Source: a virus
DNA length: 29,996 bases
Direction: 5' to 3' (one strand)
Virus record (IMG/VR): IMGVR_UViG_3300046169_000049
Span: 1-29,996 of that record
The position numbers and the translations under genes were made by a program. A model generated the notes under the pieces. It was given only the letters and a program-made list of their open reading frames with translations. It had not been told where the DNA came from and did not search any database. Positions 7,851-23,076 of the stretch are shown here, piece by piece (position 1 is the first letter of the stretch; the number at the start of each line of letters is the position of its first letter).

Positions 7851-10800
7851 TTATGAAATCTTTAGGAATCCGTTACTGTCTTTATAGACTACATTAGGCT
7901 CTATTGGCTTGGTGCTTGGTATATTAACCAGCTTCGTAATACCTGCTAATTTATTTTCTTCCCTTGTTAGCCTTGCATATTGCTCATTACTTGAATCTAT
8001 ATATAAACCATCTAGTCCAAATCGGCTTCTACTGTCTGCACTTCTAAATAATAGATTTGATGTAAGTGTAAATTGTGCATCGTTGCCCGTGTTGTTTCCA
8101 TTTACAACGATTTTTACTTTATAATGCGTATAAGAATAATTAAATGCACTAAACGTAACCCTAGACAAGTCATTTATTGATACGCAATCAGTTCCTAGAA
8201 AGTTTGCAACTAGATTTGTGGCAGTTCCACTTGTACCACCATATATTTGACCTTCAATATAAAAACTTGGATTAGGGTCAGGTGTTCCCGAACCTGCATT
8301 AGATAGCTTTGCTTCAACATCTACATACAATGAATCGCCTTCGTCTATTGCAAATACGCTAGTTTCGTAAGGCGTTGTTGTTTGCGTTATTATTGTATTT
8401 AAACCTGCATTGTGATGCGTTGTTTCTGTTAAGGTATAGCCACCACTATTTATATCTATTACAGTTCTGACTTTATTGGTGTCGTATAATTCTATTTCTT
8501 GACTAGAAGAATCTATTTTTAAACCACTTTCTGCACCTGAATCAGTTGTGTCTAACCTAAATGCCTGCGTTTCTATTTCAAATGTGCCTGCATTCTCATT
8601 AAATGATAAGAAGTTAGTACCATCGCCTACTTTAAACTGTACAGTACCCTGACCTAGTTTCCAATAGTTTTGATTGTCTATTCCACTAGAATTTATTTGT
8701 AAACCTTGATTATTTAAATCTAATTTACCAACGGTCATTAATGCCGAACCCGTACCAATGACTATGTTTTCATTCGCACTACTTATATCTAGGTTTGTAG
8801 TATCTAAATTAAATGTGTCGGTCTGTATGTCAAAACTTGTACCATTAAACGATAGGAAGTTTGTACTATCACCCACCTTGAAGGCATTGCTTGTAAGTTG
8901 TGCAAGTGTACTAGTTCCATCCTTTAAGAATAATCCGCCATCAGTAACTAAGATATGCTCGTTTGAATTATCGCCTGCAAAGAATCCGAAAGTTTCAGAA
9001 GTTAAACCCGAATATCCAGTAGAATTACTTGGTCTTGGTCCTAAATCGCCAAAAGCTACCCTAGTATTTGCTTCGTTTTGTAAATCAGAAAACCCATTTA
9101 CTTCGGTTTGCATTCTCATTATAAGGCTATCTTCTGACCTATCTACGTTACGATACATTATAGCCTGCCTATCTGCATCTAATGTATTACCATAGGCAAC
9201 AATCAAATCACCAGTAACTAAGTCAGTAAGATTGCCCGAAGTAATAGAAACTTCTATATCATTACCTACTACACCAAGAACACCACCACGAACCGACTTA
9301 ACAATAGAACCAGTTCCACCACTTTCTAAGTCGTTATTTATATCGGTAACCTGACAGATAAATAAGTCATTTTCTTTGAATGAATTGCCTGCCGTACCAG
9401 TTACGTTTTCAACTGTAATAGTGTCATTGTCTGAATCAACACTTACTACTCTACCTTGTGCAATACTAAGGATTTCAGAACCGCCTATCGTACTAATCTG
9501 TTTTGCTATAAACTCAAAGACTCGTAACGCTCCACGTACCCTTAACTCTTGTAATTCTGCCGAGCCATCTGCTTGTATCTGCCAATTCGTTCCCGACCAC
9601 CCAGTAGCATACCCATCATCTGCTAAGTTTGCTTGCGTAGTCAAATCGCCTTGTAGGTTCATCGTACTATTAAAGTCAGCTTCACCCGATAAAGTAAGCG
9701 AGCCACCTACCGAAGCATTATTCGTAACCGATAAAGTATCAAAGATTACGCCATCAGTAGTCTGAACATCTTGGTTCATAGCGTATAACTCGTTATCGCC
9801 TTGACCAGTATTCAATGTAGGAGCATCTAGCGTTCCTAATATTGTAGTATTACCACTTACATCTAGCGTAGTGCCTATTGATACAGATTCTGCTACATCT
9901 AATTCATCGGTAATGTATAAGCTACCTGCTAGATTTATTGCACCAGTGAAATAGTAGTCGCTTGTATTCCAAACTTCTGTGGCAGTATTCCATATTAAAT
10001 CAGCTTGTGCATCTAGTTCATTAGTTCTAACAACGCCCGTTACAGTTAAATCATTATTTATGGTAACTAAATTGCTAGCTATATTAACATCAATTACATC
10101 AGTTGTTACTGCTTGGTTGTTAGCATCACCTGCGAATATTTTTCCTTCGTCTAGGTTAGGTACGGCATTGGTACGACCTGCACCCATGATATAGATTTGC
10201 CCACTACTAGCATGGCTTCTTACTACCTTAGCAATCTTTTGTAATAAATTTGCTTCAGTTGTTGGTGGTGTATTTACAAGCGTACCACTAGGACCAATAA
10301 ACAACTCATCGCCTACACTAAAACTACTTGTATCTATTTCTATAAGCTTACCATGGGTAACTATATCACCCATAGCATTATTGTTTACATTTGCTGATAA
10401 AATACCAATAGAAGGCATTGTGCCACTACCATCCGAATCAGCTACATCTATGGTAAATTGTTGACCTTCTGCATTTTGTCCCGATATGTAAACTGGTGTA
10501 CCTTTTGTTAATGTACCACCAGTTTCATTTTTTCCTTGTACGTGAATAGCACCAGTTAAATCTCCAATAAAATCAGCCGTTACTGTGTTAAAAGTAACAT
10601 CATCCCCAGTGCCTAAGCCTAGATTATCCCTAGCAGTAGCTACATTCTGTAAGTCAGATAGGTTATTAACTTTTTCCAGATATAAACTAGAACTGCCACT
10701 ACCACCACCAGTAGAACCCGTACTAGCAGAAGTCGTTACACCTTCACCAGTTGTATTGTAATAAGTAGTAAGTGTATCAGTTCCAGTTGTAAGGTCTGCT

Positions 10801-16953: not shown

Positions 16954-17553
16954 TCAGATTAGTTTAGCGTACTTTTTGAAATGCGATTTAGAACCATTAG
17001 GTAGTTCACTAACACCACCTTCTACTAAATCTTGTCTATCTTCATAGCTAGATAGAACTGCTTTTTTTATACCAAGCGTAATGCCATTAGGTATAGAAGT
17101 ATAGCCTGCTACATATACTACTTTTAATCGCATCCTTTCAAATGGATTTTCGTAAGCGTATAGGCTATTAAAAACAAGGGTATCACCTTGTAAGTAATAA
17201 TCATCCCCTGCCGTCAATGTAGTTTCAGTGCCTTCGTGATTTATGATTTTGACAGAACTCACCGACTGAGCAGGGAATAAAGGCAAGTCAACCCGTTTAG
17301 CATAGCTTTCCCATTCAGCCGTTACAGTTTTTTCTATTAGTTGAAAAGAATAAGTTTCTTCAACTACATCTATAACTTCAGCTACTAAGCTTGCTATTAA
17401 AGTATCTTCATCACTTGATTCTACTTTCATCCAAGATTTTGCGTTTGCCGTGCTAAGTACATCAGTTGAAGCATTTGTACCAGTTGCTACTGTTGAAACT
17501 GTTACAACGCCATTTTGCCCGTAATCTGGTGAAACAATACTACTTCTTAGCAT
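16954..17553 (-). CDS. Head-tail connector protein (gp6-like adaptor)
   Basis: The 199-aa protein has the gp6-like connector layout: an N-terminal region leading to DVLSTANAKSWMKVESSDED, a helix (LIASLVAEVIDVVEETYSFQ), beta strands carrying VDLPLFPAQSVSSVKIINHE, and the C-terminal block VVYVAGYTSIPNGITLGIKK with a final helix. Adaptors of this type form a ring below the portal. The start overlaps the upstream gene by 14 bases. The P-L-P-x-x-P-V-like motif (LPLFPAQSV) is a good family marker. Confidence 0.88.
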   Translation of the reverse strand: MLRSSIVSPDYGQNGVVTVSTVATGTNASTDVLSTANAKSWMKVESSDEDTLIASLVAEVIDVVEETYSFQLIEKTVTAEWESYAKRVDLPLFPAQSVSSVKIINHEGTETTLTAGDDYYLQGDTLVFNSLYAYENPFERMRLKVVYVAGYTSIPNGITLGIKKAVLSSYEDRQDLVEGGVSELPNGSKSHFKKYAKLI

Positions 17554-17821
17554 TTAACTCATCCTTTAATTTTATAGCTTTGGGTTCTGGTAGTCTATCT
17601 ATTATTTGGTTGCCTTTCTTGACATAGTACATAGTCTTAGTGTTCTTATCTTTTTCTATGTGTACTTTGTCAGTTGCATTGTATGCTTTTTTATCTTCTT
17701 TAGTTTCATACAATAAACCACGTTTAAGCATATCAGCCATTGTAGCATTATCTGCTTTGAAAGGTTGGTCTATTTTGTACGGTTGTTTACCGTACCTAAA
17801 GTTTTTTCTACATCTATACAT
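17540..17821 (-). CDS. Small basic protein after the major capsid gene, 93 aa
   Basis: The protein (MYRCRKNFRYGKQPYKIDQP..) is rich in Lys and Tyr and has no family I recognise. A longer frame begins with a TTG at 17869, but its extra 16 codons only translate the tRNA-like hairpin; the ATG at 17821 is preferred. It lies between the capsid and connector genes, where small decoration or stabilising proteins are common. The C-terminal segment (PEPKAIKLKDELNAKK) is helical and overlaps the connector start by 14 bases. Confidence 0.72.
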   Translation of the reverse strand: MYRCRKNFRYGKQPYKIDQPFKADNATMADMLKRGLLYETKEDKKAYNATDKVHIEKDKNTKTMYYVKKGNQIIDRLPEPKAIKLKDELNAKK

Positions 17822-17840
17822 AGCAATAAAATTAATTAAG

Positions 17841-17884
17841 AAGGATGGGCAGGAATCGAACCTGCCCAAGTTCCAAACATCCTT
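17841..17884 (-). ncRNA. tRNA-like minihelix (acceptor stem plus T-arm only) after the capsid gene
   Basis: On the minus strand a T-arm-like hairpin GGGCAGG-TTCGATT-CCTGCCC (17847-17867) carries a loop matching the tRNA T-loop consensus (TTCRANN). The flanks pair perfectly as AAGGATG (17878-17884) with CATCCTT (17841-17847), a 7-bp acceptor-like stem that shares one C with the T-stem. No D-arm, anticodon arm or CCA end is visible; only 10-11 bases join the two 5' parts. It lies 9 bases after the capsid stop. It could be an RNA-processing or stability element, an unusual terminator, or a captured tRNA 3' end. Confidence 0.6.
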
Positions 17885-17893
17885 AGGGTAATC

Positions 17894-19123
17894 TTAAGAA
17901 TTACCTGCGTTCTGTATTGCAGTAGTGAAGTTACCAAACGCACCTGCATTAGGCAAGTAAGTTGGTAGTGCTAAACGACCACTAATTTGTACAGTTACTA
18001 AATCTTTAACCACATTGTCTTGGTCTTGCTCGTAGAAACGAACTTGCATAGACTCACGGTCAAATAAAGTACATAGTTGAGCAAAGTCAGCTACTAGGAA
18101 GTCATTAGCATTTCCATCAGTTGCATTGATTGCATTAGTAGCAATAATAGGTACGCCACGTACAACTGGTACACGGGTTCCATAAACAACATCATTAGGG
18201 AATACATAGTTACCGTTAGCATCTTTTCTACGAATCATGTCATAGAATCGACCTATTGACATCATGATTGCAGATGGTGTGAAGTTACGGTTTTCAACTT
18301 GTCTAAGTGCTTCAAGTATTACATCATGCTCAGTTGCATCAGCATCGCCAGTATATTGGTCTAAAGTATAGTCAGTAGAAGTTACTGTCAAGCCATAAGT
18401 TGAATCATATAGCAAGTAAGAATCTTCTTCTTTCATGTACTTTTCCATTCCACGTAGTGAAATGTGGCTAGCTAGTCCTGCAGTATCATTCAATGCTTCT
18501 TTAGAAACACGGAAGTGTGCCGCAATTTTTTCAACAACGGCATCAGTTGCAGTTAGGTCAAAATCGTTTTGTCCAGAAGCATTACCTTCAGCAACAATAG
18601 CAGTATTGTCTGTGAAGTTGCTTTCTTTGATGTAACGAATTTTGTCGCTATTAGTTGTACCGTTTGGTAGGAACTGTCGCACGTGAGTTTTACGCTCGGC
18701 ATCGTACTTCATACCTGCAACATAATCAGCAGGAACTACATCACCAGTATAAGCATCAGCTTCAGTTATAACTGCTTTAGTGTCCATAGTAAAGCCAGAA
18801 ATGTTACCTGCTTTGAAGGCATTCATTTGCTCTTGAACATTTTTGCTTTCTAGTGATTCTTGAAGAATGTTTTTAACACTAGCAGGCTTGCTACCAGAAC
18901 CTAATCTGTTAGCAGACTTTTCAATAGCTTCTAATCTATCTTTTTGGCTAGAAATTAATTCTTCGATGTTTTTGATTTCAGACTTGGTAGCTGAATCAGC
19001 TTCGCCCGCAAGGCTTACTTGCTCTTGAAGTTTGTCATAACGGGATTCTAAATCGCCTTTAAGAACATCCATGTGCCCTTTTACCGATTCAAGCCCTTCT
19101 GATAAGGTTTTTTCTAAGTCCAT
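17894..19123 (-). CDS. Major capsid protein, HK97 fold
   Basis: The 409-aa protein begins with a coiled-coil delta-like region (about 1-73: LEKTLSEGLESVKGHMDVLK.. through RLEAIEKSANRL). A linker leads to the HK97-fold body, with GDVVPADYVAGMKYDAERKT near 128, the E-loop region, VEKIAAHFRVSKEALNDTAG near 195 and RQVENRNFTPSAIMMSIGRF near the A-domain. The delta domain normally acts as the scaffold and is removed by the prohead protease encoded just upstream. The start overlaps the protease end by 10 bases and is preceded by a Shine-Dalgarno-like AAAAGGAG. The tRNA-like hairpin follows the stop. Confidence 0.93.
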   Translation of the reverse strand: MDLEKTLSEGLESVKGHMDVLKGDLESRYDKLQEQVSLAGEADSATKSEIKNIEELISSQKDRLEAIEKSANRLGSGSKPASVKNILQESLESKNVQEQMNAFKAGNISGFTMDTKAVITEADAYTGDVVPADYVAGMKYDAERKTHVRQFLPNGTTNSDKIRYIKESNFTDNTAIVAEGNASGQNDFDLTATDAVVEKIAAHFRVSKEALNDTAGLASHISLRGMEKYMKEEDSYLLYDSTYGLTVTSTDYTLDQYTGDADATEHDVILEALRQVENRNFTPSAIMMSIGRFYDMIRRKDANGNYVFPNDVVYGTRVPVVRGVPIIATNAINATDGNANDFLVADFAQLCTLFDRESMQVRFYEQDQDNVVKDLVTVQISGRLALPTYLPNAGAFGNFTTAIQNAGNS

Positions 19124-20742: not shown

Positions 20743-20868
20743 ATGGAAAAACTAATAGATAGAGTGCAAGAACAATTAGATAATAATTGGGCAGTCGATA
20801 AAACTGATATACAAGCTTTGCTAATGTTTGCTATTTGTTTCTGGAAACAAGTTCATAAATCACATTAG
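20743..20868 (+). CDS. Possible small plus-strand gene, 41 aa
   Basis: This is the only plus-strand frame here that looks protein-like. It begins MEKLIDRVQEQLDNNWAVDK and ends in KQVHKSH, with an amphipathic helical profile. It fills the gap between the protease and the second glycosyltransferase, and its tail overlaps the latter's 3' end by 38 bases, converging with it. The upstream bases (TTTTTAAAGTA before ATG) are A/T-rich as for other starts, but no clear promoter was found. The longer frame from 20659 adds unconvincing residues. Treat as tentative. Confidence 0.4.
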   Translation: MEKLIDRVQEQLDNNWAVDKTDIQALLMFAICFWKQVHKSH

Positions 20869-21499
20869 CTAGTTCATCTTGTCTTTTTGAATTTCTTCGC
20901 TCGCTTATAAAAATAGATTGATTTTTTGAAGATTCGGTCATTTTAAGCCAATATTCTTTATGTGCCAAACAAATGACCCTTGTCCCCTTTTTCGCTAATT
21001 CTAAGCTAGCCATTATATCAGCCATCTTGTATTCTTTCCATGTAAGTGGGTCAAACTTTACAGTATCAGTATGGAAAGCACTAACACCCGTACCTGCTAC
21101 ATGGATTTCATAATCATAGGGAACTGTACGCAAGCAAGGGTAACTGTCATGCCCACTATAGTAGGGTAAATTTAATCCCTTAAGCCTTCTACCATGAAAT
21201 GTTACCCAAGTATTAGGGTACTTCTTCAAGCCCTTAACAATCGTTTCTACATAGTCTGGTGGATAGATAATATCATCATCACAAGAAAGGTAGATACCCT
21301 TGCTTATGGGTAACCAAAAAAACTTGGCATTATCTGTGTAGTCTGGACCAGTATAGACTTCTACATTATCGCCTTCTAATTCTGGTTGGTAATCGTTCCC
21401 ATAAACACGAACCTTATCAACTTGATGCCTTAAAGAATCTACTACTTGTTGTAGGTTTTCTTTACGTGCTTCTATTGTGGCAAGGTTGGCAGTAATCAT
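20831..21499 (-). CDS. Glycosyltransferase-like protein (GT-A fold), 222 aa
   Basis: The protein starts MITANLATIEARKENLQQVV, like the first beta-alpha unit of GT2-family enzymes, and carries an acidic DxD-like motif at 74-76 (GIYLSCDDDIIYPPDYVETI) typical of metal and nucleotide-sugar binding in GT-A enzymes. Downstream, VTFHGRRLKG and HVAGTGVSAFHTDTVKF form the acceptor side. It is predicted soluble. The ATG overlaps the small membrane gene's stop (ATGA), so the three-gene cassette is translationally coupled. The likely role is adding a sugar to a virion protein or host surface, with neighbours MuF and the prohead protease suggesting capsid glycosylation (inference). Confidence 0.8.
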   Translation of the reverse strand: MITANLATIEARKENLQQVVDSLRHQVDKVRVYGNDYQPELEGDNVEVYTGPDYTDNAKFFWLPISKGIYLSCDDDIIYPPDYVETIVKGLKKYPNTWVTFHGRRLKGLNLPYYSGHDSYPCLRTVPYDYEIHVAGTGVSAFHTDTVKFDPLTWKEYKMADIMASLELAKKGTRVICLAHKEYWLKMTESSKNQSIFISERRNSKRQDELANVIYELVSRNK

Positions 21500-21672
21500 T
21501 TTTGTGAATCTATCAACTGTTTAATAAATACATCAAACTTTGATTCTAATAAAATTACTATATCACTTTTTAATGCAATAAAAAACAAGGTAAGTATTAT
21601 TACTAATTGCCAGTCATAAAATGCAGACCATATTAAGCAAGCCATGCCTGCAACCAATCCTAATTTATTCAT
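21496..21672 (-). CDS. Micro membrane protein between two glycosyltransferases, 58 aa
   Basis: The 58-codon frame runs ATG 21672 to TGA 21496 and has ATGA overlaps with both neighbours, strong evidence for a real gene. The protein has two hydrophobic segments: LGLVAGMACLIWSAFY (about residues 4-19) and LVIILTLFFIALKSDIVILL (about 23-42), then a polar helical tail. It could anchor the glycosyltransferases at the inner membrane or act in sugar-lipid transfer. No known family was recognised. Confidence 0.7.
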   Translation of the reverse strand: MNKLGLVAGMACLIWSAFYDWQLVIILTLFFIALKSDIVILLESKFDVFIKQLIDSQK

Positions 21673-22313
21673 AAACTTATAAGTGGTTGTTCTTTTCTTA
21701 GTTCTGGGTGCATCATGCTTTCATGTTCCCCGTGATAACATAATGATTTTTTAGGTATGTACATAGGAATGCCAAGCTTCCAAAATTTACGGCTTTGACT
21801 TTCACCAACACCCGATGAAATCTTTGACCTACCAAACCTGCTTGATGTAATAAAATCTTGTTCAAAATTTATAGCTTTTAGTGTTTGTCTATTTGTAAAA
21901 TAACCACCATCACAATAGCTAACTTGTATAGAATCAAAACCTTCTAATTTTACTTCTTTGTGTTCTATATAAGTCCAGATTTTAGGTCTGCCATCATTCA
22001 AAAGATTGTAGGCGTACTTGCCTTTTACGTTAGTATATAAATGTTCTATTGTTTTGTGGTCCACACTCAGAAAGTCATCAGGTAGGAATAAAAAAAAATC
22101 ATCATCAGACTGTTTGCATATTTCAAAAGCATATTGCCAATTAAAAAAGTATTGTTCTTTGCCTTTATGTTCTAATCTGTGAAACTCGCACATACCTAAG
22201 AAAGGCATGGGGTCAAAATTACTACCATCGTCTATAACTATAGGCTTTTCTGGGCATTGCCCTATTACTTTCTTAAGTAATTCTGGTCTGTTATAGCTAA
22301 ATATTATCGTCAT
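21669..22313 (-). CDS. Glycosyltransferase-like protein (GT-A fold), 214 aa
   Basis: The protein begins MTIIFSYNRPELLKKVIGQC, the GT2-like 'xSYNRPExL' opening, followed by IVIDDGS and an acidic pair at 79-80 (FFLFLPDDFLSV) in the DxD position. YCDGGYFTNRQTLKAINF fits the GT-A acceptor-binding half. A longer frame begins at 22367, but its 18 extra residues overlap the MuF end; the ATG at 22313 leaves a 17-base overlap and is preferred. Like its partner at 20831-21499 it may glycosylate a virion component. The two proteins share fold but only low identity, so they probably have different sugars or acceptors. Confidence 0.8.
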   Translation of the reverse strand: MTIIFSYNRPELLKKVIGQCPEKPIVIDDGSNFDPMPFLGMCEFHRLEHKGKEQYFFNWQYAFEICKQSDDDFFLFLPDDFLSVDHKTIEHLYTNVKGKYAYNLLNDGRPKIWTYIEHKEVKLEGFDSIQVSYCDGGYFTNRQTLKAINFEQDFITSSRFGRSKISSGVGESQSRKFWKLGIPMYIPKKSLCYHGEHESMMHPELRKEQPLISL

Positions 22314-23076
22314 AAGGTTCGTAGATAACAGTACAACGGCAGTTAATTGTATTGCTTGGAGCCGCACCTAATGAAGAATCAGCAGGGTATTTCATTTCAT
22401 CAACACCCACTTGGAAGTTTCCATCTAATGTGTTTACAACTTGACCATCAACGGCTAAATGTAAATCCCTTGTTCTGTCATCTTGTGTAGCTAACCATAT
22501 TTTTTTTGATGGTACACCAGAAGCTTTTGCACCCAATAAAGAACCTGCATTTGATGCTGAAACTATTTCAGTCCTACCTATAAGCATACCCCTTCTAGTG
22601 CTGAAACTATAAGTTTTTGCTAATTCTTTGGCAAAAATAGGAATGGGCGTTCCTTCTTTTAATGCTATAGCAACCTTAGCATATATTTCTTTCTTAGTAG
22701 TATCATCTATAGAATTCCATATTTTAGTTTTGTTGTCTATTAACCAACTAGAAATAACAACATCCCAATCCACACTAATTTCTTTTTTTAATATTTCTTT
22801 AAACTGCGCATAGGTTTCTTGAGCAAATACCTTCATAACACGACCATACACCTTTTCAAAGGCTTCTTGTATGGGTTCACTTGTTACTATGCCTTCTAAA
22901 TCAAAGTCAATTTTACCAACTCGTTCTACTTCATTTAAGTACGCATTGAGTTGCTTGCGTAGTGCTTTAGTAAATATTCGTTCTGCGTACTTTTCGAAGG
23001 ACCTAATTTTATTGTCGTAAGCCTTCCATGTCATGTACTTTTTATAAGATTCGATATTTGTCTTAGGTATTGGCAT
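22297..23076 (-). CDS. Head morphogenesis protein, SPP1 gp7/MuF family
   Basis: The 259-aa protein has a helical N-terminal half and the MuF C-terminal signature: RRGMLIGRTEIVSASNAG, then KIWLATQDDRTRDLHLAVDG, and the cysteine-containing NTINCRCTVIY near the end. SPP1 gp7-type proteins bind the portal, enter the head in small copy number and aid DNA ejection. A hairpin terminator ends only about a dozen bases before this ATG, so transcription must either read through or start nearby. The last 17 bases overlap the first glycosyltransferase. Confidence 0.9.
   Translation of the reverse strand: MPIPKTNIESYKKYMTWKAYDNKIRSFEKYAERIFTKALRKQLNAYLNEVERVGKIDFDLEGIVTSEPIQEAFEKVYGRVMKVFAQETYAQFKEILKKEISVDWDVVISSWLIDNKTKIWNSIDDTTKKEIYAKVAIALKEGTPIPIFAKELAKTYSFSTRRGMLIGRTEIVSASNAGSLLGAKASGVPSKKIWLATQDDRTRDLHLAVDGQVVNTLDGNFQVGVDEMKYPADSSLGAAPSNTINCRCTVIYEPYDDNI

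Follow-up and report, generated by a model that had tools for sequence, protein, structure and literature searches.

The capsid locus and its tRNA-like element

The window, by which we mean the whole stretch of 29,996 nucleotides of viral DNA analysed here, carries on its minus strand a gene for an HK97-type major capsid protein (Pfam Phage_capsid, 2.8e-24; PHROG major head protein, 1.8e-39). Beyond the capsid stop codon (17896-17894) and a gap of 9 nt lies a short structure that an earlier note on this DNA had described as a tRNA-like minihelix placed after the major capsid gene and ahead of the next one. The description held in each respect: the upstream gene encodes the major capsid protein, the distance to the stop codon and the position ahead of the next gene are as given, the coordinates are exact, and the T-loop TTCGATT sits on a perfect 7-bp acceptor-like stem (Table 1). 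Acceptor-like stem and T-arm together form a helix of 13 bp, read from 17884 to 17841. As in tRNA, the T-loop follows the consensus TTCRANY, is closed by G53-C61 and is accompanied by a D-loop-like GG in the linker. The absence of D-arm, anticodon arm and CCA was confirmed as well. ARAGORN found no tRNA in the stretch, of which only acceptor and T-arm are present, and the bases 3' of the helix are C-T-T, with no encoded CCA. No family reached its gathering score for the minihelix in an Rfam search, and with the tail CTTAATTA the window element does not show the GC-rich stem followed by a T tract that marks an intrinsic terminator.

Table 1. Features of the minus strand at and around the minihelix of the window
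Feature	Positions	Strand	Remark
tRNA-like minihelix, whole element, 44 nt	17841..17884	-	CM R1, 66.4 bits; sole copy in the window
Acceptor-like stem, 5' strand AAGGATG	17878..17884	-	Partner 17841-17847; compensatory changes among relatives
Linker TTTGGAACTTG	17867..17877	-	TTTGGAA invariant in A1
GG in linker, proposed equivalent of D-loop G18G19	17874-17873	-	GG in 74/75 two-stem elements, not required by the finder
T-stem, 5' strand GGCAGG	17861..17866	-	Covariation with 17848-17853
T-loop TTCGATT	17854..17860	-	TTCGA invariant in A1
T-stem, 3' strand CCTGCC	17848..17853	-	Covariation with 17861-17866
Acceptor-like stem, 3' strand CATCCTT	17841..17847	-	Covariation/compensatory changes
C after helix, C74-like, first base of a CCA	17840	-	C at +1/+2 in 406/428 elements
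Major capsid protein gene, upstream of element	17894..19123	-	Stop codon 17894-17896
Next gene, 94 aa, without family match	17540..17824	-	ATG 16 nt past element
Hairpin GGTAAT-TCTTAAG-ATTACC across capsid stop codon	17887..17905	-	Ends 2 nt 5' of element

A stretch of 56 nt around the element folds better than its shuffled versions (z -3.0), as does a longer one of 101 nt (z -3.57). In the minimum-energy fold of the single window sequence, the linker GGA pairs with UCC and replaces the full 7-bp acceptor. Because this structure differs in the acceptor, pairing there must rest on comparative evidence. A second hairpin, of 6-7 bp, spans the stop codon of the window capsid gene; hairpins at this place on the 5' side of the element recur in the window clade and show modest covariation. 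In L013 and relatives, 23 nt that take in the stop-codon hairpin (TAATTCTTAAAATTGCCCAACGG) are present in duplicate past the capsid stop, just upstream of the element. Two ORFs of the head-gene cluster of the window (20831-21499 and 21669-22367) look glycosyltransferase-like by eye, the former having no Pfam or PHROG match.

Conservation and replacement in capsid relatives

Relatives of the capsid protein were gathered by protein similarity, blind to RNA. Where capsid identity was at least 64% and the downstream DNA was readable, the minihelix directly followed the capsid gene in 65 of 65 cases, many of the contigs being closely related to one another. The two strands of the acceptor stem vary in step among them (AAGGATG/CATCCTT, AAGGAAG/CTTCCTT, AAGGAAA/TTTCCTT and AGGAAC/GTTCCT), and several pairs of the T-stem do likewise; near relatives show different T-stems. 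No change was seen in TTTGGAA, in TTCGA or in the pair that closes the T-stem; the linker of the window element is highly conserved, with an invariant GG, and a C always stands 3' of the helix in this clade. Covariation in the clade scores 0.468, whereas shuffled columns give 0.098 and slid structures no more than 0.130. The earlier note had proposed looking for the same structure after capsid genes of related phages, and had counted against it a lack of conservation where relatives retain both flanking genes; none of the 65 lacks it, and the changes in its stems are compensatory. There is one copy each in the window phage and in nine related records, and ten distant capsid relatives gave no CM match.

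The slot after the capsid gene can be filled differently. Two capsid proteins, those of L600 and L599, are 90% identical, and the slot holds a minihelix in L599 (2806-2860) and a hairpin with a T tract in L600 (2262-2282). This is a natural swap between minihelix and intrinsic terminator. Intrinsic terminators were found in the same slot in two more distant capsid relatives, L071 and L073.

A class of minihelices at gene ends in other phages

In a first scan the pattern fixed only TTTGGAA and the T-loop, leaving acceptor pairing free. Many other viral contigs turned out to have this two-stem structure, built from stems of unrelated sequence: 64% of the 126 distinct hits form at least 12 pairs, compared with 5.6% when 3' flanks were swapped between hits, and ordinary tRNA makes up much of the remainder. 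In two added scans with other linkers, 42/46 and 75/124 hits gave paired structures, and swapping the flanks lowered these figures to 7/46 and 6/124. Covariation among 54 diverse elements scores 0.994, as opposed to 0.204 after shuffling. Our total stands at 428 distinct contexts, 333 distinct sequences and 236 loci, figures that are no unbiased census because they come from a rule-based finder run on loci fetched by pattern. The finder gave zero hits on reversed sequences. Lambda yielded neither a finder hit nor a CM match; phiC31 yielded no CM match, and its lone finder hit is part of an annotated tRNA-Thr. Since only one of 296 Bacteroidota genomes had a match, the minihelix is mainly viral, and we rejected the idea of a host-genome feature. 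In the pattern scan of genome contigs ordinary tRNAs dominate, mostly with TTTGGAA around the anticodon. Hits in Prochlorococcus phage P-GSP1 and Klebsiella phage Miami were left uncounted, as they show an altered T-loop or a plain hairpin. The P-GSP1 structure (L414:1499-1538) is similar, with the loop TGCGATT; it is flanked by psbA and a hypothetical gene and seems to fall at the stop of a small ORF that is not annotated.

Residues outside the stems are shared across the class. With a finder that did not require it, 74 of 75 elements still had a GG early in the linker, usually at an offset of 2-4, and the sole element without GG is part of a tRNA-like sequence. A linker GG so nearly universal fits the contact between G18G19 and the T-loop in the elbow of tRNA. 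In 406 of the 428 elements (95%) a C stands directly 3' of the helix or one base later, as if the first C of CCA had been retained; in most copies of the multi-copy contig L330 the complete CCA is encoded immediately 3' of the helix.

Of 151 elements, 90 begin 0-25 nt past an ORF stop (4.3% for random positions in the same DNA), and a further 37 overlap the stop codon, which then lies inside the acceptor stem. The elements are typically on the coding strand. Mycobacterium phage Send513 has 12 of them, all on this strand, mostly 7-15 nt past annotated stops and 39-58 nt ahead of the next start. Gene-gap copies, again all on the coding strand, number 6 in MrMiyagi, 9 in Streptomyces phage phiScoe10 and 7 in Joe in the DNA fetched, and none of the checkable elements in these four phages is annotated. 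In L330 (2942-6965) a series of small unknown genes is broken up by ten elements. Stem sequences differ between copies within one genome. The class is not confined to capsid genes, its upstream genes including a lipoprotein-like gene and unknowns; capsid genes stand upstream again in the lineages L397 and L402, whose capsid proteins are 26% and 24% identical to that of the window. In multi-copy phages a further hairpin lies 2-5 nt 3' of the element (mean z -1.9, n=61; approximate, from mononucleotide shuffles).

A candidate role in setting message ends

Taken together, the structure and its siting are best explained by a tRNA mimic that sets the 3' ends of mRNAs, probably through cleavage by RNase P and/or RNase Z; we hold this to be reasonably likely. 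A role at mRNA 3' ends is indicated by the stop-codon position, the swap with a terminator and the abutting hairpins. In the mechanism we propose, a coaxial helix of acceptor and T-arm, 12-13 bp long and without D-stem, anticodon arm or (in the window) CCA, would act as a minimal tRNA mimic whose linker GG docks in the T-loop, a tertiary contact that would build the tRNA elbow. At the capsid stop codon the element would mark the 3' end of the capsid message. Host RNase P, in 5' processing, and/or RNase Z, on the 3' side, would recognise it and cut the polycistronic late transcript; cleavage and the enzymes responsible are what we infer from the features above. Were the element excised, the flanking hairpins would become the ends of the two messages. 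In the window clade the stop-codon hairpin would remain as the 3' end of capsid mRNA, and in multi-copy phages the hairpin directly 3' of the element would serve the next mRNA as a new 5' end. The minimum-energy fold of the window sequence, with its departure in the acceptor, speaks against this explanation.

RNase P cleaves model acceptor/T-arm hairpins with a measure of ~12 bp from T-loop to cut, and interference occurs at G19, G53 and A58 (PMC11143913). Its standing as the leading candidate rests on three points: hairpins of this acceptor/T-arm form are among its known substrates, it measures in this way, and those three residues matter. Their counterparts in the element are the linker GG, the G-C pair that invariably closes the T-stem, and TTCGA; an acceptor/T helix of about 12 bp with a T-loop is found in the window element and the class alike. 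Other observations weigh on the opposite side. Helix length is not a strict 12 bp, being 13 bp for elements of the window type and varying from 11 to 13 bp over the class, and RNase P is not singled out by the elbow residues because many tRNA enzymes recognise them. Bacterial RNase P makes use of CCA, and E. coli RNase P reportedly requires a 3' CCA on small substrates (PMC5723415). Action of RNase P alone is therefore disfavoured in the window clade; the window element has no CCA and keeps only C74. RNase Z may act at the 3' side of the element. This enzyme acts on precursors that lack CCA.

Of the three ideas offered in the earlier note, the two that assumed a functional RNA (a processing signal or a 3' stabiliser) have gained strong support as a kind, from conservation in all 65 relatives, compensatory changes, the unpaired elbow residues and the stop-codon position in unrelated phages. 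A stabiliser would need no specific cleavage: the elbow fold would halt 3'-to-5' exonucleases, and upstream mRNA ends would be trimmed back to the element. The site right past stop codons, the intrinsic terminator hairpin that replaces the element in a close relative and the adjoining hairpins all agree with this. A plain stable hairpin would suffice for the purpose, however, which leaves unexplained the conserved T-loop, GG and C and, in multi-copy phages, the hairpin immediately 3' of the element; we think this reading rather unlikely. The slot shared with intrinsic terminators of relatives could also point to a transcription terminator of unusual form, and a loose consensus scan does call the window T-arm terminator-like. 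Yet just 12 of the 428 elements have at least five T within the next 8 nt, a terminator has no need of conserved loop and linker sequences, and ending transcription between nearly all genes of an operon would demand one promoter per gene. We consider a terminator improbable.

The third idea, a captured tRNA 3' end or attachment site (attP), is not supported. It would account for a T-arm consensus like that of a tRNA 3' end, but both acceptor strands covary, there are up to 12 copies per genome on the coding strand after stop codons, near relatives are unlike in the T-stem, and no integrase is among the window proteins tested; we rejected it on covariation, copy number and location and consider it extremely unlikely. 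Very little more can be granted to the idea of a decoy or sponge, released as a small RNA, for enzymes that act on tRNA, be they tRNA modification enzymes, a host defence that targets tRNA or RNase P itself, and we rate it highly improbable. Such enzymes do read the acceptor/T half of tRNA, and the variety of stems among copies in one genome would suit it, whereas placement at stop codons on the coding strand would be unneeded and the single copy in the window phage and its nine related records argues against it.

A tRNA mimic that sets message ends would have several relatives among known systems. The model RNase P substrates AT1 and pMini3bp likewise stack an acceptor on a T-arm with T-loop, which suffices for correct cleavage in vitro (PMC11143913); they are synthetic, whereas the phage elements are genome-encoded, lie at stop codons, have a GG linker and mostly lack CCA. 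M3 RNA and the C4 antisense RNA of P1/P7 are phage RNAs cut by RNase P (cited in PMC11143913). Being read by a host enzyme is their likeness to the proposed role of the element; they are single RNAs and the minihelices repeated intergenic signals. In mitochondria, tRNAs punctuate polycistronic transcripts between genes, often touching stop codons. The phage elements resemble these in being tRNA-like structures between genes, often at stops, and differ in that the mitochondrial signals are real tRNAs and the phage ones would be minimal mimics without an anticodon. In the tRNA-like domain of tmRNA, acceptor stem and T-arm are accompanied by a D-loop that has no stem and contacts the T-loop through its GG. 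The minihelix shares this architecture of acceptor, T-arm and GG, without an mRNA domain, without CCA (in the window) and without a fixed G3-U70 pair. We rejected identity with this domain, as the third acceptor pair of the window element is G-C and no tag domain is present; across the class the third pair varies. The 3' tRNA-like structures of plant RNA viruses are also viral tRNA mimics at the 3' end of a message, with a pseudoknotted acceptor and aminoacylation in place of the simple helices of the phages.

Mimics of tRNA are a known kind, as is punctuation by tRNA; a phage version that spans the genome and is built of minimal acceptor/T-arm elements is apparently undescribed. Neither ARAGORN nor Rfam reports the minihelix. 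A search of the open literature, with most subscription papers outside it, found no description of the class, and there is no mention of the elements in the papers on phiJoe and Endor2. Siting at stop codons in many unrelated phages, at times in almost all gaps of an operon, suggests that host tRNA-processing enzymes are borrowed to make message ends. More tentatively, and with slightly less than even confidence, we propose that host enzymes excise shared minimal tRNA mimics in many unrelated tailed phages, leaving single-gene messages with hairpin-protected ends. In this reading cleavage may be coupled to translation termination, as the stop codon often lies in the acceptor stem. If true, a widespread RNA class would be present in the laboratory phages Send513, Papyrus and Joe, and a tRNA-punctuation system would exist outside organelles. 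It would explain how phages with long operons can dispense with a terminator or promoter at every gene and still make separate messages, and work on RNase P and on RNA structure would gain a natural tRNA elbow of compact form. The idea is directly testable with existing phage-host pairs.

The intergenic inverted repeats of phiC31 are terminators without poly-U. They too are hairpins in actinophage gene gaps, and unlike the minihelix they have neither T-loop nor GG; we rejected them as the same element because they are plain hairpins and the lone finder hit falls in the annotated tRNA. An unannotated tRNA-like sequence was seen in phiC31 in the gap right after gp13 (L423:31410-31550). In two gaps of MrMiyagi (L422:8715-8834 and 9790-9989) the tRNA-like forms are longer and have additional arms that separate GG linker and T-arm; these forms are possible intermediates between tRNA and minihelix.
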